Positions 34,301 to 64,000 of a stretch of 64,000 bases of DNA are shown here, one piece after another. The stretch is from NCBI RefSeq assembly GCF_014652675.1, contig NZ_BMZG01000007.1, positions 62,001-126,000 of the forward strand, in the 5' to 3' direction. Numbering within the stretch: the stretch's first letter is position 1; each line of letters begins with the position of its first letter. The DNA is from Formosimonas limnophila. Lineage in GTDB: Bacteria > Pseudomonadota > Gammaproteobacteria > Burkholderiales > Burkholderiaceae. The translations under genes were made by a program, and so were the position numbers. The notes below the pieces were generated by a model, which was not told the origin of the DNA, did not search any database, and was given only the letters and a program-made list of their open reading frames with translations.

Positions 34301-35335
34301 CACAGCCACGTCATCGGTCAAGTCATCCCGACGGAGCAATCGGCGGCTGAATTCAGTATTTGGCAAGACGGCGAAGCCCAGCTCAAGCTGCCACTGGCCA
34401 AACTCCACGCCGCATGGCAGGAAACCTCATTTCACATCGCCAAACTGCGTGATAACCCAGCCTGTGTGGAGCAAGAATACAGCCGCGCACCTGAGCCGCT
34501 CACGCCCGTGGTCACATTCACGCCGTCCGCAGATGCACACGCCAAATACCTCAACGTCGCCAACAAGCCAAAAGTCGCCATCCTGCGCGAACAAGGCGTC
34601 AACGGCCACGTCGAAATGGCCGCCGCCTTTGCGTCAGTCGGCTTTGACGCAGTGGACGTGCACATGAGCGACTTACTCGCAGGGCGCGTGTCGCTCGCCG
34701 ACATGCGTGGCCTCGTCGCTTGCGGTGGTTTCTCCTACGGTGACGTGCTCGGCGCGGGTGAGGGTTGGGCAAAAACCATTTTGCACCACCACAATCTGCG
34801 TGCTCAATTCGCCGAATTTTTCGCCCGTCCCGACACATTCAGCCTCGGCGTGTGTAACGGCTGCCAAATGATGAGCAACCTCAAAGAACTCATCCCCGGC
34901 GCAGACCACTGGCCGAAATTCGTGCGCAACACCTCTGAGCAATACGAAGCCCGCCTCGTGCAAGTCCGCATCGACGACTCACCATCGATTTTACTCAAAG
35001 GCATGACTGGCTCCGTCCTCCCTGTCGTCATCAGCCACGGCGAAGGCCGCGCCGCCTACGCCACTGCCGCAGATGTCAGTGCCGTCCAATTAGATAAAAA
35101 AGTCGCCCTGAGCTATGTCAACGCGGCGCATGAAAACACCGAAACCTACCCACAGAACCCGAACGGCGCACCGAACGGCTTTAATGGTTTCACCACCACC
35201 GACGGCCGCGTCCTCATCATGATGCCGCATCCTGAGCGTGTGTTTAGAAATGAATTGTTTTCGTGGAAACCGAGTGAGTGGAGCACGTCGCCGTGGTTGC
35301 AAGTGTTTCAAAATGCGCGGGAGTGGGTCAATTAA
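31376..35335 (+). CDS. purL: Phosphoribosylformylglycinamidine synthase, large type
   Basis: PurL converts FGAR to FGAM in purine synthesis using ATP and glutamine. The 1319-residue single-chain enzyme has an N-terminal domain, the tandem AIRS-like ATPase halves ([31 protein letters not shown]), and a C-terminal glutaminase. The glutaminase carries the nucleophile [10 protein letters not shown] near 1158 and the His-Glu pair in MMPHPER near 1283. The start is the ATG at 31376 (MSVITILRG). Third-position base use drifts from G/T-rich in the 5' half to C/A-rich in the 3' half. The stop overlaps the zeta-like gene by one base. Confidence 0.97.
35191..35298 (+). repeat. purL 3'-end direct repeat, copy 1
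   Basis: This part of intact purL is repeated at 36068-36175, exactly 877 bp away, with 10 mismatches in 108 bp by my count. Confidence 0.9.
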
Positions 35336-35850
35336 TGGAAAAAAAAGTAGTCATCATTGCAGGGCCTAATGGCGCGGGCAAAACAACTTTTGCCCGTGAA
35401 TTTTTACCAAACGAGGCACACTGCCCCATTTTTATCAATGCAGACCTCATCGCGGCAGGTATTTCACCGTTCGCACCTGAGCTTGCGGCAGTACAAGCTG
35501 GTCGAATCATGCTTAAGTTGATAGATGAACACGTACAGCGTGGTGATAGTTTTGCGATTGAAACGACATTAAGTGGTGTCGGTTATGCACGAGCCATCAA
35601 AAAATGGCACACTTTGGGTTATCACGTTAAGTTAATTTTTCTTGAGTTACCTAATCCTGAGTTTGCGATTGAACGTGTTACCGAGCGGGTCAAGCAAGGT
35701 GGGCATCATATTCCTAGCGATGTCATCACGCGACGCTTTCATTCGGGACTAAAGAATTTTCACGAAGTGTACAAACCGCTGGTGGATGCGTGGTTACATT
35801 TTGATAACTCGGGTGAACAAGCTGTATTGAAAAATTGGAGCGAGCAATGA
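35335..35850 (+). CDS. Zeta-toxin-like P-loop kinase
   Basis: The 171-residue protein has a Walker A motif (IIAGPNGAGKTTFA), then FINADLIAAGISPF and the substrate-side motif AIETTLSG. LIFLELPNPEFAIERV and RRFHSGLKNF follow. This is the pattern of the zeta_toxin/AAA_33 kinases widespread in proteobacteria. Classical zeta toxins phosphorylate UDP-N-acetylglucosamine, but toxicity of this short branch is unproven. It overlaps purL by one base (TAATG) and the next ORF by four (ATGA), so it may be read from the purL transcript. Confidence 0.85.
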   Translation: MEKKVVIIAGPNGAGKTTFAREFLPNEAHCPIFINADLIAAGISPFAPELAAVQAGRIMLKLIDEHVQRGDSFAIETTLSGVGYARAIKKWHTLGYHVKLIFLELPNPEFAIERVTERVKQGGHHIPSDVITRRFHSGLKNFHEVYKPLVDAWLHFDNSGEQAVLKNWSEQ

Positions 35851-36002
35851 ACCAAAAACCCATAGAGCAAGCCAAAGATGCAGACATTCGCAATGCTCAA
35901 GCTGCACTGCAACGCGCCGCTGTGCGCGCACGCGAGGTTGCACAGCAAACGCATACGGCATTGATTGTGAATAAGCATGGGCAAACAGTTAAAGTCCGCT
36001 AA
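35847..36002 (+). CDS. 51-residue partner of the zeta-like kinase
   Basis: This short ORF starts within the stop of the zeta-like gene (ATGA overlap). It encodes a helical, Ala/Arg/Gln-rich N-terminus (AALQRAAVRAREVAQQT) followed by TALIVNKHGQTVKVR. Small proteins with an alanine-rich helix and a short strand ending near the C-terminus often accompany this zeta branch (recalled pattern). It is a plausible antitoxin or cofactor. The overlap suggests tight co-translation. No homologue can be confirmed here. Confidence 0.7.
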   Translation: MNQKPIEQAKDADIRNAQAALQRAAVRAREVAQQTHTALIVNKHGQTVKVR

Positions 36003-36048
36003 AGGAAATTTCAATTTAACTTGACCGCATCGATTTCACCCAACGGCT

Positions 36049-36209
36049 ACAACGGCTACAACGGCTTCACCACCACAGATGGTCGCGTCCTCATCATGAC
36101 GCAGTATCCTGAGCGTGTGTTCAGAAATGAATTGTTTTCGTGGAAACCGAGTGAGTGGACTATGTCGCCGTGGTTAACTATCAGATCGAGCTTCCAGCGA
36201 AAGTGTTAA
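36049..36209 (+). pseudogene. Relic of the purL 3' end
   Basis: The sequence repeats the purL C-terminus ([11 protein letters not shown]...[18 protein letters not shown]...SPW). The glutaminase histidine motif MPHPER has become MTQYPER. After SPW the homology stops and the sequence runs into an unrelated HEPN gene fragment. It cannot encode a useful protein. It is best read as a displaced gene end left by an insertion or recombination next to purL. Confidence 0.88.
36068..36175 (+). repeat. purL 3'-end direct repeat, copy 2
   Basis: This is the downstream copy of 35191-35298, about 91% identical. Similarity probably extends about 20 bp further upstream with lower identity. Confidence 0.9.
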
Positions 36210-36301
36210 TAAATGAATTAGTTGATAATAGAAATGCTATTGCTCATGGCAGAGATTCTCCAATTAGTATTGGAGAAAAAACAAACTCATCTGAACTGAG
36301 A

Positions 36302-36309
36302 AAAAAATA
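36302..36309 (+). repeat. Target site duplication, left copy
   Basis: AAAAAATA directly precedes the IS left end and is repeated at 38513-38520. Confidence 0.93.
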
Positions 36310-36335
36310 GGTAATTATATACTTAATTGGACAAA
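36310..36335 (+). repeat. IS terminal inverted repeat, left
   Basis: The repeat reads GGTAATTATATACTTAATTG and then GACAAA. Two of its 26 bases differ from the right repeat. Confidence 0.95.
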
Positions 36336-36362
36336 ATTAATCTTTTTTAAGTTTTCTGACGC

Positions 36363-36388
36363 AAGCCAGTTTAAAGGCTGGCTTTTGT
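36363..36388 (+). terminator. Hairpin with T-run near the left IS end
   Basis: AAGCCAG and CTGGCTT arms flank TTTAAAGG, followed by TTTG. It probably blocks transcription entering from outside the element. Confidence 0.6.
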
Positions 36389-36423
36389 ATTTTGGCAACA
36401 ATCAAACAAAAGAATCAATTAAC

Positions 36424-36451
36424 TTGCAAGATTGATTCTTTGGTGTATAAT
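36424..36451 (+). promoter_or_regulatory. Promoter for the IS passenger gene
   Basis: TTGCAA and TATAAT are 16 bp apart. The passenger ATG lies 32 bp further on, with GGAGGT at 36472-36477. Confidence 0.75.
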
Positions 36452-36482
36452 GACTCCAGTTTCTTAATTATGGAGGTCTGAT

Positions 36483-36968
36483 ATGGCGGACTTAAACATT
36501 ATCCTGCAGGAAAAAGAGCGGGCTTTAGAGTATGCAGAGAAAGAGGTTGTTGAGCTTAAACAACAAATTCAATCACTCAGACAGACTATTGCAATGCTAG
36601 GGACTACCACTTTGTTTGAGAGCGCGTTAAAGTCAAGCCAAGTGGTAGTAAGTTTGCAAAAAGAAAAAAGCAATACAAAAGCCGATGATATTTACTTGAA
36701 AGCATTGGAACGAATTGAAAAAGCAAGTAAGCCGAAAGGTGCTTTATCGCAAGCAATCTTAGAAGTGCTATCGGATGGTGCTGTGCGTGATAGCCACGAA
36801 GTATTTTCTGAAGTTAGCAAAAAATTGGCAACAACCCTACGTTCAGTTCAGGTCACGTTAGGAAATCTTAAAAATCGCGGAGAACTTAAATCAGTAAGTT
36901 ATGGTAAATATCAGTTCATTAAAGACGAATCGCCAACAATTGGCGTTGTTGGCGATTCAATTTTGTAA
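36483..36968 (+). CDS. IS passenger protein: coiled coil plus winged-helix-like domain
   Basis: The 161-residue protein opens with a heptad-patterned helix (LQEKERALEYAEKEVVELKQ, residues about 8-45). A linker follows, then a region from about 90 to 150 with helix-turn-helix character (ALSQAILEVLSDGAVRDSHE, later TLRSVQVTLGNLKNRGEL and SYGKYQFIK). That suggests a DNA-binding regulator. It has its own promoter and a perfect GGAGGT site. It is transcribed away from the left end, opposite to the transposase. I do not recognise the family. Confidence 0.8.
   Translation: MADLNIILQEKERALEYAEKEVVELKQQIQSLRQTIAMLGTTTLFESALKSSQVVVSLQKEKSNTKADDIYLKALERIEKASKPKGALSQAILEVLSDGAVRDSHEVFSEVSKKLATTLRSVQVTLGNLKNRGELKSVSYGKYQFIKDESPTIGVVGDSIL
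36927..36958 (+). terminator. Perfect 13-bp hairpin at the passenger gene's end
   Basis: GAATCGCCAACAA and its exact complement flank TTGGCG, followed by AATTTTG. It lies inside the last codons of the passenger gene and probably works as a terminator or RNA stabiliser. Confidence 0.65.
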
Positions 36969-37012
36969 CCAAACGCCTTGAGGAAGGCACTAATAAGAAA
37001 GGAGATTAGCCT

Positions 37013-37087
37013 ATGACTGGTTTGTCGCTCGGCGCACTCGCAATTAGTTTTGCGTTGGTTGTGTTTGCAGCATTGCTCATAATATAA
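37013..37087 (+). CDS. 24-residue hydrophobic peptide in the IS
   Basis: The ORF encodes MTGLSLGALAISFALVVFAA followed by LLII. It is a single likely membrane helix with almost no charged residues. An AAAGGAG site at 36998-37004 has ideal spacing. Its size and nature resemble type I toxin peptides or translated leader peptides. It sits directly before a structured RNA segment, so a leader role is also possible. Translation is inferred from the ribosome site only. Confidence 0.55.
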   Translation: MTGLSLGALAISFALVVFAALLII

Positions 37088-37099
37088 GCGTTGCTACGT

Positions 37100-37225
37100 T
37101 GGCAAGGTGAAGCAGGGTAACCTGTCCCACCTACAGCCAGACTTGATTAGAGTCTGGCTACATTGTAGCGCAGATACTGGCTGTAGGCAATAGTAAAGTG
37201 CTCTGGGCTTCTTTAAGGAGCTTGG
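37100..37225 (+). other. Structured RNA segment inside the IS, with a hidden ribosome site
   Basis: Hairpin 1 is AGGTG-AAG-CAGG-GTAA-CCTG-TCC-CACCT (37105-37132), capped by a GNRA-type GTAA loop. Hairpin 2 is AGCCAGACT/AGTCTGGCT (37135-37159), perfect 9 bp with a 7-base loop. CCTACAGCCAG (37130-37140) is also a perfect complement of CTGGCTGTAGG (37177-37187) and competes with both. Near the end, GCTTC/GGAGC pairs across TTTAA and covers the AAGGAG of the next ORF. The layout suits a switchable leader or a small RNA. The family is unknown. Confidence 0.6.
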
Positions 37226-37226
37226 C

Positions 37227-37352
37227 ATGAGTTATAGCCTAAGAATTAAAGATGTGTTCGTTCGAGCATACATTCGTATTCGATTTGGAAAAATCGAGTT
37301 TGTTTGTCAGCACTATCGTTCACGTCCCCATCAGTTAGCGTTATTTAATTGA
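37227..37352 (+). CDS. 41-residue basic protein in the IS
   Basis: The ORF begins MSYSLRIKDVFVRAYIRIRF, continues with GKIEFVCQHY and ends RSRPHQLALFN. It has about nine Arg/Lys residues in 41 and a single cysteine. AAGGAG at 37215-37220 is at good spacing, but it can pair into a hairpin. Its C-terminal QLALF resembles the QL-x-LF ends of small phage and plasmid proteins (recalled, not checked). A terminator follows 11 bp after the stop. Function unknown. Confidence 0.6.
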   Translation: MSYSLRIKDVFVRAYIRIRFGKIEFVCQHYRSRPHQLALFN

Positions 37353-37505
37353 TGTGACTTTAAGCGCACCGTCTTTTGATGGTGCGGTTTTTTCTTTACT
37401 ATTTTGCTTCAAATTATCAGGTAGCCTATCTTTATCAAACTTTGCTATACGCTGCAAAGCCTCATTAAAGCCAACTTTTGGAACTTCCACTGGCTTATTG
37501 CTCAT
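37341..37505 (-). CDS. 54-residue ORF downstream of the transposase
   Basis: The ORF encodes a polar protein starting MSNKPVEVPKVGFNEALQRI, with many lysines near the end. A GAGGTAA site overlaps the transposase stop, so it is probably co-translated with the transposase. Its last 12 bases overlap the 41-residue ORF on the other strand, and the plus-strand terminator lies within its coding sequence. It may be an accessory transposition protein. That is inferred from position only. Confidence 0.65.
   Translation of the reverse strand: MSNKPVEVPKVGFNEALQRIAKFDKDRLPDNLKQNSKEKTAPSKDGALKVTSIK
37363..37394 (+). terminator. Terminator after the 41-residue ORF
   Basis: CGCACC-GTC and GAT-GGTGCG arms flank TTTT, followed by GTTTTTTC on the plus strand. 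Confidence 0.8.
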
Positions 37506-37513
37506 GTATTACC

Positions 37514-38440
37514 TCACTTGTTGATTAACGCTTTATAGGTCAATTTACGCCCTTGAGTTGATTTTAACAGAGAATTAACGCGCTCACCTTCTGACATTTC
37601 ACGACGATTCCAACGCCATGCAAACATCTCGGTGTAACGACCTATGTGTTTATCGCTTGCGTGGTGGTAGATGCCAACAATCGCACGTTTGAAGTGGCCA
37701 AAAGCACCCTCAATTGTGTTTGTGTAAGCATCACCATCTACGTACTGACCCAATGCATGTTTTACCTGCTTGTGCTCGTATTCACGGTGCATCCATTTAA
37801 AATGGCGGCCTTCGTCTGTGTTGACTGTTGCTGTATTGCTGATATTGCTACGAATAACAGGTTTAATAGAAGGCTCGCTTGCACGTTCAATAACATTTAA
37901 ACGCAAATCACCGCCTCGCTCAACCATACCAAATACAACGGTTTTAGACTTAGCAGAGCCAGCACCTTGAGCACCTTTAACACGCTTGTTTGCATGTTTG
38001 TTCTTTTCTTTGCCGCCAACATAGGTTTCGTCAACTTCTACAACGCCGCTTAATTGTGTGTCGCGGCTATCGGTTATAGCTTCACGAATACGATGCAACA
38101 TGAACCAAGCGGTTTTTTGAGTGACTTTAATATCACGGGCTAATTGACAGCTTGAAATGCCTTTCTTGTGATTTGTTGCCAAGTAAATAGCCATAAACCA
38201 CTTAGTCAAAGGCACTTTTGAATCATCGAATATTGTACCCTTGCGAACGCTGAATTTCATTGCGCATTCTTTTTCACCGCACTTGTGTGTACCGTCTTTC
38301 AAATTGTAAACCGACACAGAACCACAGTGTGGGCAAGCAACGCCATTAGGCCAACGAACGGCGCGAAAGTGATCAACACATTTTTTCTCGTCAGAGAAAA
38401 CTTGTATCATTGAAAATAAAGAATCGAATTCTTGAAACAT
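37514..38440 (-). CDS. IS1595-family transposase
   Basis: The 308-residue protein has an N-terminal zinc ribbon (CPHCGSVSVYN, then HKCGEKEC). A helix-turn-helix follows (GISSCQLARDIKVTQKTAW), then a DDE-type core: VEVDETYVGGKEKNKH, TVNTDEGRHFKW and NTIEGAFGHFKRAI. This order is typical of IS1595 (ISXO2-like) enzymes. The start may be 38440 or the Met ten codons in (38410, MIQVFSDEKK). It looks full length and uninterrupted. Confidence 0.95.
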   Translation of the reverse strand: MFQEFDSLFSMIQVFSDEKKCVDHFRAVRWPNGVACPHCGSVSVYNLKDGTHKCGEKECAMKFSVRKGTIFDDSKVPLTKWFMAIYLATNHKKGISSCQLARDIKVTQKTAWFMLHRIREAITDSRDTQLSGVVEVDETYVGGKEKNKHANKRVKGAQGAGSAKSKTVVFGMVERGGDLRLNVIERASEPSIKPVIRSNISNTATVNTDEGRHFKWMHREYEHKQVKHALGQYVDGDAYTNTIEGAFGHFKRAIVGIYHHASDKHIGRYTEMFAWRWNRREMSEGERVNSLLKSTQGRKLTYKALINK

Positions 38441-38486
38441 TTTAGCCGCCGTTGTTTAACCGATGACTAAATTGTACGCTTAAATA

Positions 38487-38512
38487 TTTGTCCAGTCAAG
38501 TATATAATTACC
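38487..38512 (-). repeat. IS terminal inverted repeat, right
   Basis: Read on the minus strand it begins GGTAATTATATACTTGACTG and ends GACAAA. It pairs with 36310-36335. Confidence 0.95.
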
Positions 38513-38520
38513 AAAAAATA
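38513..38520 (+). repeat. Target site duplication, right copy
   Basis: AAAAAATA is identical to 36302-36309. Confidence 0.93.
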
Positions 38521-38623
38521 TGACCAGATATATAATTGGATTTTTGAGCTAATAGATGAGTTTGAGAACTATTTAAAAATGAAATTTTTTTTAAAAGTCG
38601 AATACGCATCTTTATATGAAAAG

Positions 38624-38692
38624 GCCTAACGCGGTAAATGGCAGGCCACCAATAGCATGGCCGATATTGATTGGAGGCGGCAAAAGTTAGGG
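38624..38692 (+). other. attC-like imperfect palindrome
   Basis: GCCTAAC (38624-38630) fits the integron R'' consensus RYYYAAC and contains the TAA stop of the HEPN gene. GTTAGGG (38686-38692) fits the R' core GTTRRR but not the final pyrimidine. Between them GCCACCAAT pairs with ATTGGAGGC (8 of 9). The two flanking arms are uneven in length (14 and 7 bases), which is unlike a textbook attC. No integrase is in the window. Confidence 0.35.
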
Positions 38693-38815
38693 GTTCAATG
38701 AACCGAGGGCGCATTGTGCCGTATATATGGTCGTTGGCAAAGTCACAGTAATAGCCGATTTAGATAGGCTTCACAATGCTCAAAAAATCACATATTACGC
38801 GCTACGAATTAACAG

Positions 38816-39271
38816 GTGATTGATATCAATTCGAAAAAACTAAAAACATCTGCTGTGATATTTACATGGATCGGTCCTGGCTTGATCCTGATGTCTTTTT
38901 ACGTTTTTGTTATCGAATTTATTGAGCGATCAAAACATGAGGTGACCTATGGCGTTGTGGTTCGTGTAGAGGGCGAAAACAAGAGTTATTCGGCGCATGT
39001 TCGATTTGAAGATTTGTCAGGCCAGAGTTTTGTTTTTATAGAGCCTACAGACCATAGAAGGTATGATGTTGGAGAGCGTCTGACTGTCCATTATCCAGTT
39101 AATGAACCAAATCGGGCAGTTTTGCGTCGGACGGCTAACAAAAATTACTGGGGTGGCACGTGGCTGTTGCTGTTTGGCTTGCTTTATAGTTTTTCCGCAT
39201 TTGTGCAAAAGAGAGTTGAAAACGAAGAAGCAGATCAAACAATGGAACTCGATAACCGAGGTGGGGTATAG
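38816..39271 (+). CDS. DUF3592 membrane protein
   Basis: The 151-residue protein has one N-terminal and one C-terminal membrane segment around a beta-rich soluble part. The pattern is TYGVVVRVEGEN, then YSAHVRFED, VGERLTVHYPVNEPNRAVLR, typical of DUF3592. The function of this domain is unknown. The start is a GTG at 38816 with AACAGG upstream, and no ATG fits better. It follows the attC-like site by 123 bp. That gap contains only GGTTCA-A-TGAACC, a small palindrome. Confidence 0.8.
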   Translation: MIDINSKKLKTSAVIFTWIGPGLILMSFYVFVIEFIERSKHEVTYGVVVRVEGENKSYSAHVRFEDLSGQSFVFIEPTDHRRYDVGERLTVHYPVNEPNRAVLRRTANKNYWGGTWLLLFGLLYSFSAFVQKRVENEEADQTMELDNRGGV

Positions 39272-39369
39272 TCTCGTTTCAGCAGATCTGTGAGGCAATG
39301 CTTAAAACTACCGTACATGGCGTTCCACTCATCAAGCTGTACATCAGTGGAAACTTACTCGAAACGCTT

Positions 39370-39684
39370 ATGACCATATCTAATCCGCAACGCAACAACC
39401 CACTCCACGGCCTAACCCTCGAATTCATCCTCACTAAGTTGGTGGCGTACTACGGCTGGGCGGGTTTGTTTGAGCGGATTCCGCTTAAATGCTTTGACCA
39501 TGAGCCGAGCATCAAGTCAAGTTTGAAGCTGTTGCGCAAGACGCCTTGGGCGCGGGAGAAGGTTGAGGGGTTGTATGGGTTTATGCTGCGCGAGGTGCGG
39601 CGTGGTCGGGGCGCGGTTGTCTCTGATGAGGTTGATGACGCTGATGACGGGGTGGATAATCCGTGGCTGAGAAAGTCTGAGTAG
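39370..39684 (+). CDS. VF530 family DNA-binding protein (DUF2132)
   Basis: The core matches VF530: NNPLHGLTLEFILTKLVAYY, then RIPLKCFDHEPSIKSSLKLL and RKTPWAREKVEGLY. Members are small DNA-binding proteins (family knowledge). A 25-residue acidic tail (VSDEVDDADDGVDNP) is extra. I prefer the ATG at 39370 (MTISNPQRN) over 39298, since the family starts near there. Confidence 0.88.
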   Translation: MTISNPQRNNPLHGLTLEFILTKLVAYYGWAGLFERIPLKCFDHEPSIKSSLKLLRKTPWAREKVEGLYGFMLREVRRGRGAVVSDEVDDADDGVDNPWLRKSE

Positions 39685-39759
39685 GTTAAGGCCGATGACT
39701 GACAGGCTGAGGAATGAGTCGAGTGGTACGTTAATAATCAATCAAATGGAGCGTGAGTG

Positions 39760-58322: not shown

Positions 58323-58745
58323 TTAAGAAGAAAACGGTTTAATCACGACCAAAGCGGTGATGATGAGCATCAAAATGACGGGAATTTCGTTAAACCAGCG
58401 ATACCAGACATGGCTGCGTTGGTTCTTTGCAGCATAAAAGCCTTTGAGCAAACGAGCGCAATACCAGTGATAGACCAAAAGTACCAGTACCAGCGTGAGT
58501 TTGACGTGCAACCAAACCCCTGTAAAACCAGCCATATACCACATCGCTAAGCCAAAACCCACGGCAGGAATCGCCAAAATGGTCATGAAACGGTACAGTT
58601 TACTGGCCATGAGCAATAATCGTTGTTGGGTGGGCGTGTCATTCACTGTGGCCAAATTCACGAAAATTCGTGGTAAATAAAACAGACCCGCGAACCAAGA
58701 GGCCACGAACACGATGTGCAGAACCTTAAACCAAAGATACAACAT
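58323..58745 (-). CDS. hemJ: HemJ-type protoporphyrinogen IX oxidase
   Basis: The 140-residue, four-helix membrane protein has the HemJ signature LWFKVLHIVFVASWFAGLFY-LPRIF, with the haem-ligand histidine. A later YRFMTILAIPAVGFGLAM and WLHVKL follow. HemJ oxidises protoporphyrinogen IX in haem synthesis in bacteria lacking HemG and HemY. It ends 8 bp before the THUMP methyltransferase start and is probably co-transcribed with it. Confidence 0.85.
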   Translation of the reverse strand: MLYLWFKVLHIVFVASWFAGLFYLPRIFVNLATVNDTPTQQRLLLMASKLYRFMTILAIPAVGFGLAMWYMAGFTGVWLHVKLTLVLVLLVYHWYCARLLKGFYAAKNQRSHVWYRWFNEIPVILMLIITALVVIKPFSS

Positions 58746-58887
58746 AAATCACCTGAAGGAAAGTGTGCCAAAGCCAGTATTGTACGTGATAAGCCATTGA
58801 AATATCGAGCTTCATGACCATATCAATATGGAAAGTGGCGCATAATGAAGTACATTTTATCCCGAAGAACCTCAAAGGAGAAAAAGC

Positions 58888-59220
58888 ATGAGTGACCTGA
58901 AAAGTATTTTAGAGCAAGCGGAAGAGTTACTCAAACAAGCGGCGAGCACCAGTGGTGTTCAAGCTCAAGAGTTGCGTGAAAAAGCCGTGGTGCTGCTCGA
59001 ACAAGTCAAAGAGCAAACCACTGTGCTGCAAGACAAAGCTGTTGAGAAAGCCCGCGAAGCAGGGGAGGCCACACAAGCCTTTGTTAAAGACAATCCGTGG
59101 AAAGCACTCGGTATTGCCGCAGGTGTTGGACTTTTACTTGGTGCAATGCTCAAGGGTGACAATGAACCCAAAGCCGATAGTCAACCCACACCACCAGATG
59201 AACCCCCACGGTTAAATTGA
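58888..59220 (+). CDS. DUF883 (ElaB/YqjD-like) membrane-anchored protein
   Basis: The 110-residue protein is mostly one long charged helix (LKSILEQAEELLKQAASTSG, then KAVVLLEQVKEQTTVLQDKA). NPWKALGIAAGVGLLLGAML follows at residues 71-90, the C-terminal membrane anchor typical of ElaB/YqjD proteins. E. coli members bind ribosomes at the membrane in stationary phase (family knowledge). A strong AAAGGAG precedes the ATG. A terminator follows. Confidence 0.9.
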   Translation: MSDLKSILEQAEELLKQAASTSGVQAQELREKAVVLLEQVKEQTTVLQDKAVEKAREAGEATQAFVKDNPWKALGIAAGVGLLLGAMLKGDNEPKADSQPTPPDEPPRLN

Positions 59221-59234
59221 GTTGGTTTTATCAT

Positions 59235-59267
59235 AAAAAACGCGAATGTCGATTCGCGTTTTTTATG
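59235..59267 (+). terminator. Terminator after DUF883 gene
   Basis: AAAAAACGCGAAT and ATTCGCGTTTTTT arms flank GTCG. Confidence 0.85.
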
Positions 59268-59399
59268 TTGGCTCGTTGTATATAAAACTGTCACACGAGA
59301 TTAAGATGGGGAGCATGGGCAAATGCCATCACTATTTATAAAGGCGCGGCTAATTGGAGTACATAGGCGGACATGCAAGCACGCGCACTGAACAGCGGG

Positions 59400-59728
59400 C
59401 CTGTGACCGAAGTGTGGGCATAGGGTGGCGCATTGGCCAGTCTTTAAATGATATGGGAATTGAGACGGTCGGTGATTTCACACGCGCTTCGACCACCATG
59501 ATTCGCCAAAGGTTCGGTGTCGTTGTTGAGCGAACACAACGAGAACTCCAAGGTGTGTCGTGTCTTGAAATGAAAGCCGTTAAGCCCAAGCGTCAGCAAA
59601 TCATTCGTAGTCGAAGTTTTGGGTAACCAGTTTGTGATTTAACAGGACTGCGCTCCGCCATATCACACCACGTTGCTGACGCGGGTCGTGAATTGCGCGA
59701 GGAGGGTGGCGTTGCCCATAATAAATGA
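59400..59728 (+). pseudogene. umuC (Y-family DNA polymerase) remnant
   Basis: A fragment of the UmuC little-finger side reads VGIGWRIGQSLNDMGIETVG, then MIRQRFGVVVERTQREL and KRQQIIRSRSFG. TAA (59624-59626) replaces the expected glutamine. The frame then continues PVCDLTGLRSAISHHVADAG and ends at 59726-59728. The catalytic palm domain and the C-terminus are gone. It is a relic of an SOS polymerase gene that borders the OLD-family gene. Confidence 0.85.
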
Positions 59729-59909
59729 ATTGCTTGTGGTCATGTAATTGACCGAGTCATAAAAGGTATAGAATTGGCCTTTGTGGCCAATATGCGGTAT
59801 AGGAAGCGGAGTAAGGGCATGATGGTTATATTTTTGTGAGCGTATGCAATTTATATTTAGATTAACCACCATATTGTAATAAATTAAGCAACGAAAGAAT
59901 TTTAAGGTT

Positions 59910-61898
59910 ATGAAGCTAAAAAAGGTCGCCTTGCAGAACGTAAGAAGTTTCGCCGATCGTCAGGAATTTGATTTAGATGGTAATATATCGATATTAATTG
60001 GTCCTAATGGTGGAGGTAAAACAAATTTATTAGATACCATTGTGTTGTCACTAAGACAGCATCTAATTAAATCATGGGAATTTACAGAAGATTCCTCTAC
60101 AAAAAAAACTACCATCAGCCTAAATCAAATTGTATCTTCGCAGGGTTTAGAAAAACATAGTCAGCGCTCTCAGGATGATCAAATCATTGAGTTTACAATT
60201 CAGATTACTCAGCCTGATATTGACAACATGAAATATTGGGTTGATAACTCAGAATCAATAATTAAAAATTTAGGTAAAGAATATATGAACCTGGGAGCAT
60301 ATCGGTTAAATAGAGAAATTGTCAATACTCTTGCTCCTGATGAGACTTTCGTTTTTGAAATAAAAAACAGCGTTTTGATGGGTGATGAACCAGATCCTAT
60401 GTCTTATCAATTTGAGCAGTTGTCAGTTGAGCCGACAGATAAGCGTTATCAATTTAGGAAATATCTCACTTTCTATGAAATTATTACTAGGCTATCTCAG
60501 GAAGAAAGCAAAGTAACCTTATCTACGCCGATGATGTTGATGCCTGTAGCGCGAGCGCATGGTGGGAATTTAGGGTCATCAGTAATCCTCTCTCAATATA
60601 GTGGAACAGAGCATAAAAGAATTTTAGATGCTGCATCTTCGAAGTCGCCAGTTAGCCAAAATGTCGGGCAATTGGCTATTGGAACTTTAGTCGAAATGCT
60701 TAGTGAGCTTACTCATAAGTATGGCAATGAACCAGCAATGAAAGCGCTGAGAGATAAAGAGTCTATAGATAGTTTCACTAAGACATTGGAAATGCTTGGC
60801 TATGAATGGGATTTGAAATGTACAAATACAAAAACAAACGCATACGAACTTAAGCTAAAAAAGCAAGGGGCTGAATTTAGCCTAGAAACCGCGTCTTCAG
60901 GAGAGCGTGAGCTTCTTACTTATTTGTTTGCGATATATGTATTAAACCTAAAAGATGCTTTGATTGTTATTGATGAGCCTGAGCTTCACCTTCATCCAAA
61001 ATGGCAAAGGAAATTAATTGAGCTGTTTGAAAAGCTTGCGGATGAAACGAATAATCAATTTGTTATGGCAACTCATTCACCTGCTTTCATTACACCTGCA
61101 TCTATTGGCTACGTTTCGCGAGTTTTTTCAGAAAGCCAAGAAAGTAAGATTGTTAGGTTAAAACATATTGATGATTTTGAAAAGAAACATTTATTTCACA
61201 TGGTTAATAGCCAAAACAATGAGCGAATATTTTTTTCAGATTTAGTTATATTGGTGGAAGGAATATCGGACAAAATATTTTTTGAAGCACTGTTCAAAGC
61301 GAAAGGTTTTGATAAAGAAATAAATAAAACATATGAAATCATTAGTGTTGGGGGCAAAGGGTTGTTTAAACAATATCAGTCACTATTAACTGGGTGTGGG
61401 ATTGCTTACGTTGTCATAGCTGACTTGGACTATGCTAAGGATGTCGGAACACCTGAAGTAAAGGAGCTATTTGATCCTAATGTCAAAAAAATCAAAAATA
61501 CTTTAAATTACTCTTTTAGTCTAGATGCAAAAAATTTTGTTAGAGAAATTGACTCTTTTATTAATAAAGACAACAAAGATGGATTGGAACAAGTTTGGGA
61601 ACACATTAAGAGTCGGCAAAGTAGTCATAAACAGTCTTTAAGCGAAGAGCAAAAAATGACGCTGTGCAAATTTATTAAAGGTCAGCGAGTGAACGATTCA
61701 ATCATTATCCTTTCGAAAGGACAGTTAGAAGACTATTTGCCGTCAAATTGCAAGAGCAAGGATGTTGAGGAAGTGATTAAGTTTACCCAAGAAGTCCAAT
61801 CATATTCGCATTTGCTGGGCGAGTTGAAACAGAATGTAATTGAAGAAATTAATATGATAGTGGATTATGTAGAAGCAAGAATTAGCCCCAAGCAGTGA
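59910..61898 (+). CDS. OLD-family ATPase with TOPRIM nuclease domain
   Basis: The 662-residue protein has an ABC-type ATPase domain: Walker A LIGPNGGGKTNLL at residues 30-42, signature ETASSGERELLTYLFAIYVL, and Walker B ALIVIDEPELHLHP near 350. A C-terminal TOPRIM domain follows (ILVEGISDKIFFEAL near 446; VIADLDYAKD near 505) with the Glu and Asp-x-Asp metal ligands. OLD proteins are nucleases, and several act in phage defence. No GajB or retron partner is next to it. The gene is markedly A/T-rich against its neighbours, which suggests transfer. Confidence 0.93.
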   Translation: MKLKKVALQNVRSFADRQEFDLDGNISILIGPNGGGKTNLLDTIVLSLRQHLIKSWEFTEDSSTKKTTISLNQIVSSQGLEKHSQRSQDDQIIEFTIQITQPDIDNMKYWVDNSESIIKNLGKEYMNLGAYRLNREIVNTLAPDETFVFEIKNSVLMGDEPDPMSYQFEQLSVEPTDKRYQFRKYLTFYEIITRLSQEESKVTLSTPMMLMPVARAHGGNLGSSVILSQYSGTEHKRILDAASSKSPVSQNVGQLAIGTLVEMLSELTHKYGNEPAMKALRDKESIDSFTKTLEMLGYEWDLKCTNTKTNAYELKLKKQGAEFSLETASSGERELLTYLFAIYVLNLKDALIVIDEPELHLHPKWQRKLIELFEKLADETNNQFVMATHSPAFITPASIGYVSRVFSESQESKIVRLKHIDDFEKKHLFHMVNSQNNERIFFSDLVILVEGISDKIFFEALFKAKGFDKEINKTYEIISVGGKGLFKQYQSLLTGCGIAYVVIADLDYAKDVGTPEVKELFDPNVKKIKNTLNYSFSLDAKNFVREIDSFINKDNKDGLEQVWEHIKSRQSSHKQSLSEEQKMTLCKFIKGQRVNDSIIILSKGQLEDYLPSNCKSKDVEEVIKFTQEVQSYSHLLGELKQNVIEEINMIVDYVEARISPKQ

Positions 61899-62129
61899 GC
61901 GAACTGAAAATCCTGTTAAATGTATAAAAAGTGAACACTTTGAATGATCTGTTCTCATTTGTTGATGGTTTTATGCTTCCTCCAAAGAAATAAAGGAAAT
62001 ATGATGGATAGGTAATGAACCCAAAAATTAAACGGGTTTCAAAGTAGAAAAAAGGGCTCTGCTGCATTAAAGTCAAAATTGGCCGAATTCACTCTTGATC
62101 ATTGATAGGAATGAAGTCGAGCATGTTTC

Positions 62130-62564
62130 TTAAGATTCTCGTGCATCATATTGTTTTTGAGCGGTTTCTATTTCTGTGAGATGTTCGGCAGTCCACTCTC
62201 CGAGTTGAATCAGTTGATCACGGAAAGAGCGACCCAGCTCCGTCAGCTCATAGTCCACACGGGGCGGTACGGTGGGAAATACGGTTCGTGTCACCAATCC
62301 GTCGCGCTCCAAGTCTCGCAGAGTGATGGTCAGCATGCGCTGTGAAATGCCTGATATGAGCCGACGGATTTCGCCGAAGCGTTTGGCACCTGAGCCGAGT
62401 AGGGTGATGATGAGGCAATTCCATTTGCTACCGACTTTGGATAAAAACTCGATCTTTTGGCGGACTTCTCGTGAGACGACCTCAAAACCGTCTTGCTCAA
62501 GCCGCATCAATAGGTGCTGTGATTTTAGGTCTTCTTTGGTTACTTCTGAGTGTGTGGGTTTCAT
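62130..62564 (-). CDS. HxlR family transcriptional regulator
   Basis: The 144-residue winged-helix protein has the HxlR pattern: FLSKVGSKWNCLIITLLGSG, then RFGEIRRLISGISQRMLTIT and LRDLERDGLVTRTVFPTVPP, ending RVDYELTELGRSF. Members sense electrophiles or oxidants. It diverges from the RND adaptor gene across 228 bp and is its likely repressor. The 231 bp between it and the OLD-family gene hold nothing I can support. Confidence 0.93.
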   Translation of the reverse strand: MKPTHSEVTKEDLKSQHLLMRLEQDGFEVVSREVRQKIEFLSKVGSKWNCLIITLLGSGAKRFGEIRRLISGISQRMLTITLRDLERDGLVTRTVFPTVPPRVDYELTELGRSFRDQLIQLGEWTAEHLTEIETAQKQYDARES

Positions 62565-62597
62565 GAATGTGCCTTCTTGCGTTGTTGCTTGGAGTTC

Positions 62598-62617
62598 GGT
62601 AACATCTCAATGGTTAC
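62598..62617. promoter_or_regulatory. Candidate HxlR operator
   Basis: GGTAACATCTCAATGGTTAC contains a GTAAC/GTTAC dyad about 35 bp before the HxlR start, in the divergent control region. Confidence 0.35.
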
Positions 62618-62792
62618 TATTTTATACTAATGTATTAAAACGAATGTGTTGCATTTCAAATTTAATTGTTTCATAAATCAAGCATGGCATATGGTTTGTG
62701 GTCAGCGCAGTGGTGTGTCTTTCTGACATACTTCGATGTGTGTATTTTTGGTTTATTTTAATCTGTGGTTTTATTGTGAAGAAGGATGACAA

Positions 62793-64000
62793 ATGAGGGT
62801 TTCATTATTGAACGCGTTGCCTGCGAAAAAAAGCTTGGGCGTGCTTCTGGTTGGCGCGGTTTTATTGAGTGCGTGTGGTGAAAAAGCACCACCACAACAA
62901 CCGCCTATGGCAGTCAGCGTGATCGAGGTTCAGCCTCAAGATGTACCTATCTCAATTGAAGCACCTGGTCAGACGGCAGGCTCCAGAGAGGTTGAAGTGC
63001 GTGCCCGTATTGGTGGAATTTTATTAAGGAAATTGTACCAAGAAGGACGTCCGGTTCAAAAAGGTGCTCCCTTGTTTGAGCTCGATACACAAACAGCCAA
63101 GGCTGCGGCAGATCAAGCTAGTGCCACACTGGCTGTTCAACAGGCTGCTTTGACTCAGGCGCAGCAAAATTTCAAACGCATCGCTCCTTTGTTTAAAGAA
63201 AATGCGGTCAGTCGAAAGGATTACGACGATGCCGCGGCTGCACTTGCAGCGGCTAAGGCCTCTGTTCAAGCAGCGCAAGCGCAGTACAGCAGTGCGAAAA
63301 TCAATCTCGGTTATACCACTGTCACAGCGCCGATCAGTGGCGTGACCAGCAGTGAGACGCGCTCAGAAGGTAGTCTCATTAGTCCTCAAGATATGTTGAC
63401 GAAAATTTCTCAGCTCGATCCGATGTATGTGAATTTCTCTTTCTCTGACTCTGAAATGATGCAGTTACGCAAAGATGAGGCCGCTGGTTTGGTTCGTATG
63501 CCAGAGGGTAATCAGTTTGAGGTTTCTCTTTTCTCTCAAGACGGTTCTGAGTATCCGCTCAAAGGACAGATGAATTTTACGGATAGCGTGGTCAGCACGA
63601 CAACGGGCAGCATTCGCGCACGCGCCACTTTCGCCAATCCCAGCAGTGATTTATTCCCAGGCTCGTTCGTCCGTGTGGCGCTCAAAGGTGCTGTGCGCAC
63701 CAACGCTATCTTAGTGCCTCAGCGTGCTGTGTTGTCAAGTGCTCAAGGTAAAAGTGTCTGGGTGTTGACCGAGGATGGTTCTGTGGCACCACGTCCGATT
63801 ACGACTGCTAATGACATCGATAAAAATGTTGTGGTGACCAGTGGTCTTAAAGCGGGTGACAAAGTGGTGGTGGACAATATCACCAAACTATTTATGTTGC
63901 CGCCGAAGAGCAAGGTCGAGCCCACCGTGGTGACATTAGAGCAATTCAACGCCGGCCCTGCACCGACGACTGCACCAGAGGGCCAAAAGCCAGCAGCAGA
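62793..64000 (+). CDS. RND efflux periplasmic adaptor (partial)
   Basis: The product runs off the window end after 402 codons. It has a lipoprotein signal with lipobox LLSAC at residues 25-29. The membrane-fusion adaptor order of AcrA-type proteins follows: a lipoyl half (VEVRARIGGILLRKLYQEGR), an alanine-rich hairpin (about 105-165), LGYTTVTAPISGVTSSETRS, and a beta-barrel ending GSFVRVALKG. It should link an inner-membrane RND pump, expected just beyond the window, to an outer-membrane channel. The ATG at 62793 follows GAAGAAGGATG. The HxlR gene faces it. Confidence 0.93.
   Translation, partial: MRVSLLNALPAKKSLGVLLVGAVLLSACGEKAPPQQPPMAVSVIEVQPQDVPISIEAPGQTAGSREVEVRARIGGILLRKLYQEGRPVQKGAPLFELDTQTAKAAADQASATLAVQQAALTQAQQNFKRIAPLFKENAVSRKDYDDAAAALAAAKASVQAAQAQYSSAKINLGYTTVTAPISGVTSSETRSEGSLISPQDMLTKISQLDPMYVNFSFSDSEMMQLRKDEAAGLVRMPEGNQFEVSLFSQDGSEYPLKGQMNFTDSVVSTTTGSIRARATFANPSSDLFPGSFVRVALKGAVRTNAILVPQRAVLSSAQGKSVWVLTEDGSVAPRPITTANDIDKNVVVTSGLKAGDKVVVDNITKLFMLPPKSKVEPTVVTLEQFNAGPAPTTAPEGQKPAA

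Follow-up and report, generated by a model that had tools for sequence, protein, structure and literature searches.

How did a gene for a putative ATPase-nuclease of the OLD family come to lie beside a broken umuC gene, and what kind of OLD system would it encode? The question is raised by a 64,000-nucleotide stretch of the Formosimonas limnophila genome (contig NZ_BMZG01000007.1, positions 62,001 to 126,000), referred to here as the window, in which the old gene follows a umuC fragment (Table 1). The original prediction was that insertion of a defence gene at an SOS polymerase locus may have removed translesion polymerase function. Our overall interpretation retains the foreign, stand-alone OLD gene and drops both umuDC as the insertion target and the loss of the polymerase. 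The product of old is probably a stand-alone OLD-family phage-exclusion nuclease that was imported as cargo of mobile DNA, and the locus is better described as a putative defence gene amid scraps of mobile DNA than as an SOS polymerase swapped for defence.

By its frame, composition and neighbourhood, old is an intact, foreign and stand-alone OLD-family gene, as had been predicted. The protein has Pfam matches above cut-off in both halves (AAA_21, 97.5 bits, and AAA_15, 92.2 bits, residues 1-394; OLD-like_TOPRIM PF20469, 57.6 bits, residues 441-507), and among the PADLOC models Old scored best (139.5 bits), followed by AriA (109.7), PtuA (105.8) and GajA (98.5). With 35.5% GC and 31% GC at third codon positions, old has the lowest GC content of the 35 non-overlapping open reading frames (ORFs) of at least 200 aa in the window (mean 49.9%, standard deviation 3.6, the OLD ORF included). 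No OLD orthologue was found in five genus relatives (G001 to G005): three contain partial matches of at most 141 query residues and two contain none, including G003, which is 85% complete. Thus, syntenic, vertical inheritance, the pattern named beforehand as contradicting an import, was not seen. No UvrD-like or reverse transcriptase gene adjoins old, which is flanked by a DUF883 gene and a gene for an HxlR-type regulator; as a control, the same neighbour reading picked up five OLD genes with a neighbouring UvrD. An Rfam scan of positions 58700-63000 gave no family at gathering score and two sub-threshold matches, with no retron RNA.

The gene has few relatives. At E 1e-40, 2 of 399 genomes drawn from the order matched, namely the genome itself and one other (G027), and a draw from the phylum, which has genomes in common with the order draw, returned the own genome only (1 of 398). 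In E. coli genomes, no DNA match to old was found. Phage and plasmid records held distant matches only, all below 60% identity (11 phage and 152 plasmid records, with one plasmid match spanning 80% or more of the query), and a first viral scan with the single OLD protein as query gave no match. Three scans were made of the viral collection and one of the genome collection. Of the 30 viral loci listed, the analysis drew on three (L054, L055 and L073); the remaining 27 matched at E 5e-11 or weaker, including L090 with 45% in its best segment. The scan of genome contigs with generic patterns returned at least two matches, including one in Rhizobium (L053, 22%) that lies outside the studied set. 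Among the matches listed are five other members of the subfamily: G027, the three viral loci and a homologue with 29% identity in a metagenome-assembled genome of Auribacterota (L052). Together with the window protein they form one clade in two trees (support 100/100 and 99/99), and by these searches and trees the subfamily is rare and well supported as one clade.

Viral genomes of three different types and an island carry members of the subfamily. The L054 homologue (39% identity) is located on an 84-kb viral contig between phage-type genes, one of which matches PHROG 9880 with 1509 bits. The L055 homologue (41% in the alignment) lies between a tyrosine integrase gene and genes for terminase, portal and head protease, and the L073 homologue (41%, N-terminal part missing) belongs to an inovirus, beside a homologue of M13 pIV and an integrase N-terminal domain. 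Three of the five members thus reside in viral contigs of different kinds, a share that is not a rate because the sample is unfair. The G027 homologue is 45% identical over residues 1-467, up to a contig end, and its remainder from about residue 481 lies on another contig. It follows hsdM, and IrrE-type genes and a serine recombinase gene are found near its two parts, the recombinase on the contig of the second part. As for the context of the homologues, which had been suggested as a point to look at, the G027 gene has hsdM as a neighbour, and three others are in viral contigs. The top PADLOC model was Old for three of the four homologues tested; the truncated G027 sequence scored higher with AriA and PtuA. 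The split of the G027 gene across the ends of contigs C33 and C10 (L071 and L070) was perhaps caused by an insertion sequence.

By context, old is a class 1 OLD gene; by sequence, it is a distinct variant. Class 1 is defined in two sources by a single gene (PMC10568477, PMC13261556), and isolated class 1 genes are reported to be rare, with 0.45% of genomes (figure cited in PMC13261556). The present gene encodes an ABC ATPase and an OLD-type Toprim in one chain and has neither a helicase nor a reverse transcriptase partner. The adjacent UvrD/PcrA/Rep-like helicase of class 2 (Gabija) is missing, and so are the reverse transcriptase, the non-coding RNA and the effector match of class 3 (retron Eco8). 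Class 2 and class 3 OLD proteins are described as partner-dependent in a 2023 review (PMC10568477), which would be consistent with an orphaned, inert effector left over from a Gabija or retron system after loss of the partner. Such an orphan is nonetheless highly improbable. Among the neighbours read at the three viral homologues, where not every neighbour was searched, there is no UvrD or reverse transcriptase; a clade of the family with five class 2 proteins was rejected in topology tests (p-AU, the P value of the approximately unbiased test, 0.0155); and the top NCBIfam model, the Eco8 retron effector, reached 73.7 bits against a cut-off of 250. An Eco8-effector search in 150 genomes of the order gave no match anywhere, controls included, and is therefore uninformative. 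As for the placement among class 1, class 2 and Gabija proteins that had been left to a tree, the class 2 grouping is rejected and the position between the P2 Old and AriAB sides shifts. In a tree without AriAB the family joins the P2 side (85/91), and adding AriAB moves it to a group with AriAB and two class 2 sequences (75/92, weak). Thus, placement among P2 Old, AriAB and class 2 varies between trees.

The two halves of the protein point to different relatives. Separate profiles of the ATPase and Toprim halves of the family were compared with 14 targets, namely P2 Old, YbjD, five OLD proteins with adjacent UvrD (class 2), four plasmid OLD-like proteins of the P2 group, AriAB, PtuA and the partial G027 protein; the labels of AriAB (466.9 bits) and PtuA, like those of GajA/GajB and UmuC/UmuD mentioned below, were confirmed by profile score. 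The ATPase half reached 533 bits with G027, 78.0 with PtuA, 61.2 with AriAB, 41.8 with the best class 2 protein, 31.4 with P2 Old and 8.8 with YbjD. For the Toprim half, the order was G027 (70.1 bits), the plasmid proteins (54.3-69.1), P2 Old (46.2), the best class 2 protein (25.3) and AriAB (6.3). The reciprocal comparison was in agreement: a P2-group Toprim profile gave 66.5-75.2 bits with the five family sequences that have a full Toprim half, as against at most 24.5 with class 2, and a P2-group ATPase profile ranked two class 2 ATPases (84.4 and 73.0) above the window protein (52.7), PtuA (38.0) and AriAB (37.7). A class 2 Toprim control profile was non-discriminating, with at most 23.3 bits for every target, other class 2 sequences included.

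Among solved structures, the ATPase half matched the retron I-A ATPase (66.5 bits), AriA (60.3), PtuA-type chains (about 58-60) and Thermus scotoductus OLD (TsOLD, 57.2), and no chain named GajA at E 0.01. The Toprim half matched GajA (26.5, the top score) and TsOLD (23.9), scores that do not separate the two. The best solved relative of the whole-length profile was TsOLD (6p74) with 84.1 bits; we know of no solved structure of P2 Old. An AlphaFold model built from four sequences was of middling confidence (mean predicted local distance difference test score 67.7), and the Foldseek E-values of Eco8, retron I-A, TsOLD, PtuA and GajA differed by no more than about 20-fold. In a second structural aligner, applied to residues 1-440 only, PtuA-type chains took the lead (Z 20.9, root-mean-square deviation 3.9, 315 aligned; rows within 1 counted as tied) and SMC heads ranked after them.

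Because the ATPase half prefers PtuA and AriA while the Toprim half prefers the P2 Old group, the protein may be a mosaic, a reading that the profiles support for the ATPase and that for the Toprim depends on P2 Old and the plasmid proteins related to it. A one-chain PARIS-like (AriAB) or Septu-like system, in which the ATPase sensor holds or releases a tRNase and phage anti-restriction proteins are the trigger, would account for PtuA and AriAB being the best non-family targets of the ATPase half, for the SSGE signature shared with AriAB and for the clade with AriAB not being rejected (p-AU 0.369). We regard it as unlikely, since the Toprim half scored 6.3 bits with AriAB as against 46.2 with P2 Old, and the PADLOC model AriAB 91 bits as against 139.5 for Old. 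The combination that marks PARIS, an AriA-type ATPase with an AriB-type Toprim, is not seen here, though the ATPase is AriA/PtuA-like.

Comparison with the known systems shows shared and differing features. Like P2 Old, the window protein is one chain with an ABC ATPase followed by a Toprim and belongs to a family of stand-alone, phage-carried genes, and with the P2-group Toprim profile its family scores far higher than class 2 proteins. Unlike P2 Old, to which it is 28% identical over 271 residues, it has an intact signature, a poorly matching ATPase half and no conserved counterpart of the metal-site residue D541. TsOLD is the best solved relative over the whole length, but its ATPase stands behind those of retron I-A, AriA and PtuA in the split comparison, and a degenerate signature and variant ATPase residues are reported for it (PMC7049728). 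Septu PtuA and PARIS AriA/AriAB resemble the ATPase half, whereas PtuA has no Toprim and the AriB Toprim is dissimilar. Gabija GajA shares the OLD ATPase and Toprim, and solved GajA Toprims top the list for that half; in contrast to Gabija, the window gene has no GajB-type helicase. It is conceivable, though doubtful, that the family represents a separate lineage of single-protein exclusion systems in which a PtuA/AriA-type sensor ATPase with intact ABC signature is joined to a P2-Old-type Toprim and which is spread by unrelated prophages, including filamentous ones. If true, such a mosaic family would be a mechanistic link between OLD, PARIS and Septu that senses like AriA and kills like P2 Old. 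Whether a single OLD protein suffices for broad defence was listed as an open question in the review (PMC10568477). With its few one-gene members, the family lends itself to testing this, and its ATPase head unlike that of P2 Old allows head and nuclease type to be compared separately.

Alignment with P2 Old places E450, D454, D505, D507 and E607 at the positions of E398, E402, D453, D455 and E543. Metal site A, with its acidic E and DxD of the Toprim, is represented by E450, D505 and D507; of the residues of metal site B, D454 and E607 are present. To kill recBC cells, P2 Old reportedly requires the five aligned residues as well as D541 and K550 (PMC7049728). The same source reports a degenerate ABC signature for class 1 OLD homologues, which is a shared property and not the definition of the class; the present family departs from it with SSGE in all six sequences. 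The signature is degenerate in P2 Old, two class 2 sequences and the four plasmid OLD-like proteins (13 of 17 sequences displayed), and a second script found no signature of the SSGE form before Walker B in five class 2 sequences. AriAB has LSSGE and PtuA has LSDGE.

Given an AriA/PtuA-like head and a P2-like Toprim in one chain, the most parsimonious interpretation is a sensor head that releases the nuclease fused to it. The old gene would have arrived as cargo of mobile DNA like that carrying its relatives (prophages, an island), and the umuC piece and a probable insertion-sequence end would be left over from other mobile elements at this variable site. The OLD protein may oligomerise and be kept inactive by its ABC ATPase head, which has a predicted complete nucleotide-binding site and signature. 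A phage-caused signal would alter the nucleotide state of the head, the C-terminal Toprim nuclease would then be released onto host tRNA or DNA, and infection would be halted at the expense of the cell. Defence function, oligomer, trigger, substrate and abortive outcome are here proposed by analogy with P2 Old, Gabija and PARIS. For P2 Old, activity upon RecBCD inhibition and cleavage of tRNA are reported (PMC12904381, PMC13261556), and AriA of PARIS is reported to sense phage proteins and to free the AriB tRNase (PMC12409363). YbjD, an isolated OLD protein of E. coli, confers anti-phage phenotypes on expression (PMC13261556).

Several observations weigh against an imported, P2-like exclusion nuclease. 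A promoter scan around old found 7 sites, compared with 9.0 in shuffled sequences, and none in the spacer upstream of the gene, and no integrase or prophage remains were found beside old in the window. The middle ligand of metal site B (D541 in P2 Old, S478 in TsOLD) corresponds to Q605, in a family column of Q, A, A, P, E and D, and this variable position speaks against an active site identical to that of P2 Old. The basic residue after the last glutamate is K615, eight residues past E607; it is K or R in four of the six sequences, aligns one residue off K550 of P2 Old and falls where model confidence is low. Moreover, the YbjD phenotype is kept without the Toprim and is RecBC-independent (PMC13261556), and the archaeal OLD protein Cran1 has a reported role in the cell cycle (PMC12796447). 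OLD proteins are thus not all P2-like, and nuclease-based killing is not assured for the window protein. Cran1 and an SMC/Rad50-type head suggested by the fold comparison would also fit a housekeeping ATPase of DNA repair or the cell cycle without a defence role. Such a function seems very unlikely for a foreign gene that was rare and patchy in both genome draws and has homologues on viral contigs.

The umuC fragment next to old lacks its catalytic part, as originally noted, and is larger than the ORF first recognized (59354-59626). It is 87.8% identical to an intact umuC of G005 over 409 columns (E 1.6e-143) and 86.6% to a second G005 copy; the match has 5 gap positions and covers about codons 152-287 of 422, and the frame stops at 59626. 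Neither the N-terminal catalytic part nor the C-terminal end of umuC lies beside the remnant. When the own genome was searched with 59221-62129, a query that excluded the outer parts of umuC themselves, no second umuC piece was found. With 434.6 and 431.3 bits, the two intact G005 copies exceed the cut-off of the NCBIfam UmuC model (431), and the gene preceding the copy tested (L051) exceeds that of UmuD. Among the genus relatives UmuC was found in G005 only, the negatives of the incomplete G003 being weaker. A search for IMS domains in six genus genomes, the own one included, gave one match each in five (frames of 356-388 aa) and three in G005.

Interruption of a resident chromosomal umuDC by a defence element, with translesion polymerase function lost at the locus, would agree with the short distance between remnant and old and with the absence of an intact UmuC from the own genome, the single IMS-domain match of which lies in a 351-aa ORF. 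We give this history very little credence. A simple insertion would leave both outer umuC parts, whereas what remains is a single 405-bp block from the interior of the gene, truncated on either side. The site has no umuC in three of the five relatives, four of the five have no second, UmuC-type IMS polymerase, and the umuDC copies of G005 sit among plasmid-type genes: one adjoins Rep3_C, ParA-type and ParB_N genes and an IS66 transposase gene, the other is near a TrbC_Ftype gene. Insertion into a resident umuDC was rejected as the leading explanation on these grounds. Because its G005 copies lie among plasmid-type genes, umuDC looks plasmid-borne in this genus; the umuC block had no blastn match in the plasmid collection, so this reading draws on G005 alone. 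The umuC piece is best read as another scrap of mobile DNA, neither insertion target nor lost host repair gene, and may derive from a decayed umuDC that arrived earlier at the site on mobile DNA. A divergent gene of about 250 aa, the same in both cases, precedes each of the G005 copies (contigs C24 and C39; L068 and L069).

In G001, G002 and G004, UPF0093 adjoins BaxI with a gap of about 190 bp in G002 and about 1.1 kb in the other two, that of G001 containing an OmpA-family ORF, and none of the corresponding loci of the relatives matched the umuC block. In G003 and G005, UPF0093 has other neighbours. Of the relatives, an intact umuDC for the proposed comparison was found in G005 only, among plasmid-type genes. 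In the genome of the window, about 10.3 kb separate UPF0093 from BaxI (58746 to 69072, past the window end) and contain DUF883, the umuC piece, OLD, a probable insertion-sequence end, HxlR and an RND efflux operon. The efflux operons of the relatives match with 53-56% (MFP) and 72-73% (RND) and are found on other contigs or in other places. The stretch 62010-62054 is 83-84% identical to a stretch of 44-47 bp at seven listed places on six G005 contigs, at least five of which are about 51 bases from a contig end. Repeats near contig ends are typical of an insertion sequence breaking an assembly, and because the G005 copies cluster there, the stretch is a probable remnant of an insertion-sequence end. 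Taken together, we read the locus as a patchwork of imports of which umuC would be one scrap. A repeat search of 59180-62800 gave 11 direct families (longest 25 nt, 76%) and 6 inverted pairs, with no convincing element boundary or target-site repeat; a perfect 16-bp hairpin at 59232-59267, after DUF883, stands out alone among them. The hairpin may be a terminator or a dispersed palindrome, since stretches of 34-41 bp resembling it occur in G002 and G003.

Table 1. Features of the old locus and its surroundings, in window coordinates.
Feature	Position	Strand	Description or basis
old	59910-61898	+	662-aa OLD-family protein, N-terminal ABC ATPase and C-terminal Toprim; uninterrupted frame
Walker A region, residues 28-39 (ILIGPNGGGKTN)	59991-60026	+	Invariant across full-length family sequences
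ABC signature SSGE, residues 329-332	60894-60905	+	Six of six family sequences; degenerate in P2 Old
Walker B and D-loop, residues 355-363 (DEPELHLHP)	60972-60998	+	Alignment
OLD-like Toprim match, residues 441-507, with E450, D454, D505, D507	61230-61433	+	Pfam; residues aligned to P2 Old
Nuclease motif end, residues 604-615 (G604, E607, K615)	61719-61754	+	Alignment
Spacer between umuC remnant and OLD start, 189 bp, 33.9% GC	59721-59909		Composition
umuC remnant, internal codons about 152-287 only	59316-59720	+	Match to G005 umuC
Probable insertion-sequence end remnant	62010-62054		83-84% identity to repeated G005 stretch
DUF883 (ElaB-like) gene, left neighbour	58888-59220	+	Pfam; G001 and G004 relatives located elsewhere
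HxlR-type regulator, right neighbour, then RND efflux operon	62130-62564	-	Pfam
Window portion of the interval of about 10.3 kb replacing the UPF0093-BaxI junction	58746-64000		Runs to BaxI, C7:131073 = window coordinate 69073

Other defence genes were seen in the same genome. On contig C4, a separate true GajA/GajB pair (L044, 5019-7749; PADLOC 704 and 430 bits) lies beside shikimate-type housekeeping genes as read from the ORFs. Also on C4 (L043, 818-7683), Tn7-like TnsA, TnsB-like, TniB and TniQ genes are directly beside PtuA/PtuB (Septu; 306 and 144 bits), and this pair is possibly defence cargo of a Tn7-like transposon. A second AT-rich stretch of the window, 35278-39700, contains a zeta-toxin-like ORF (35278-35850) as well as an IS1595-type transposase gene (37514-38440) that, at 42.6% GC, is the second lowest of the 35 ORFs.

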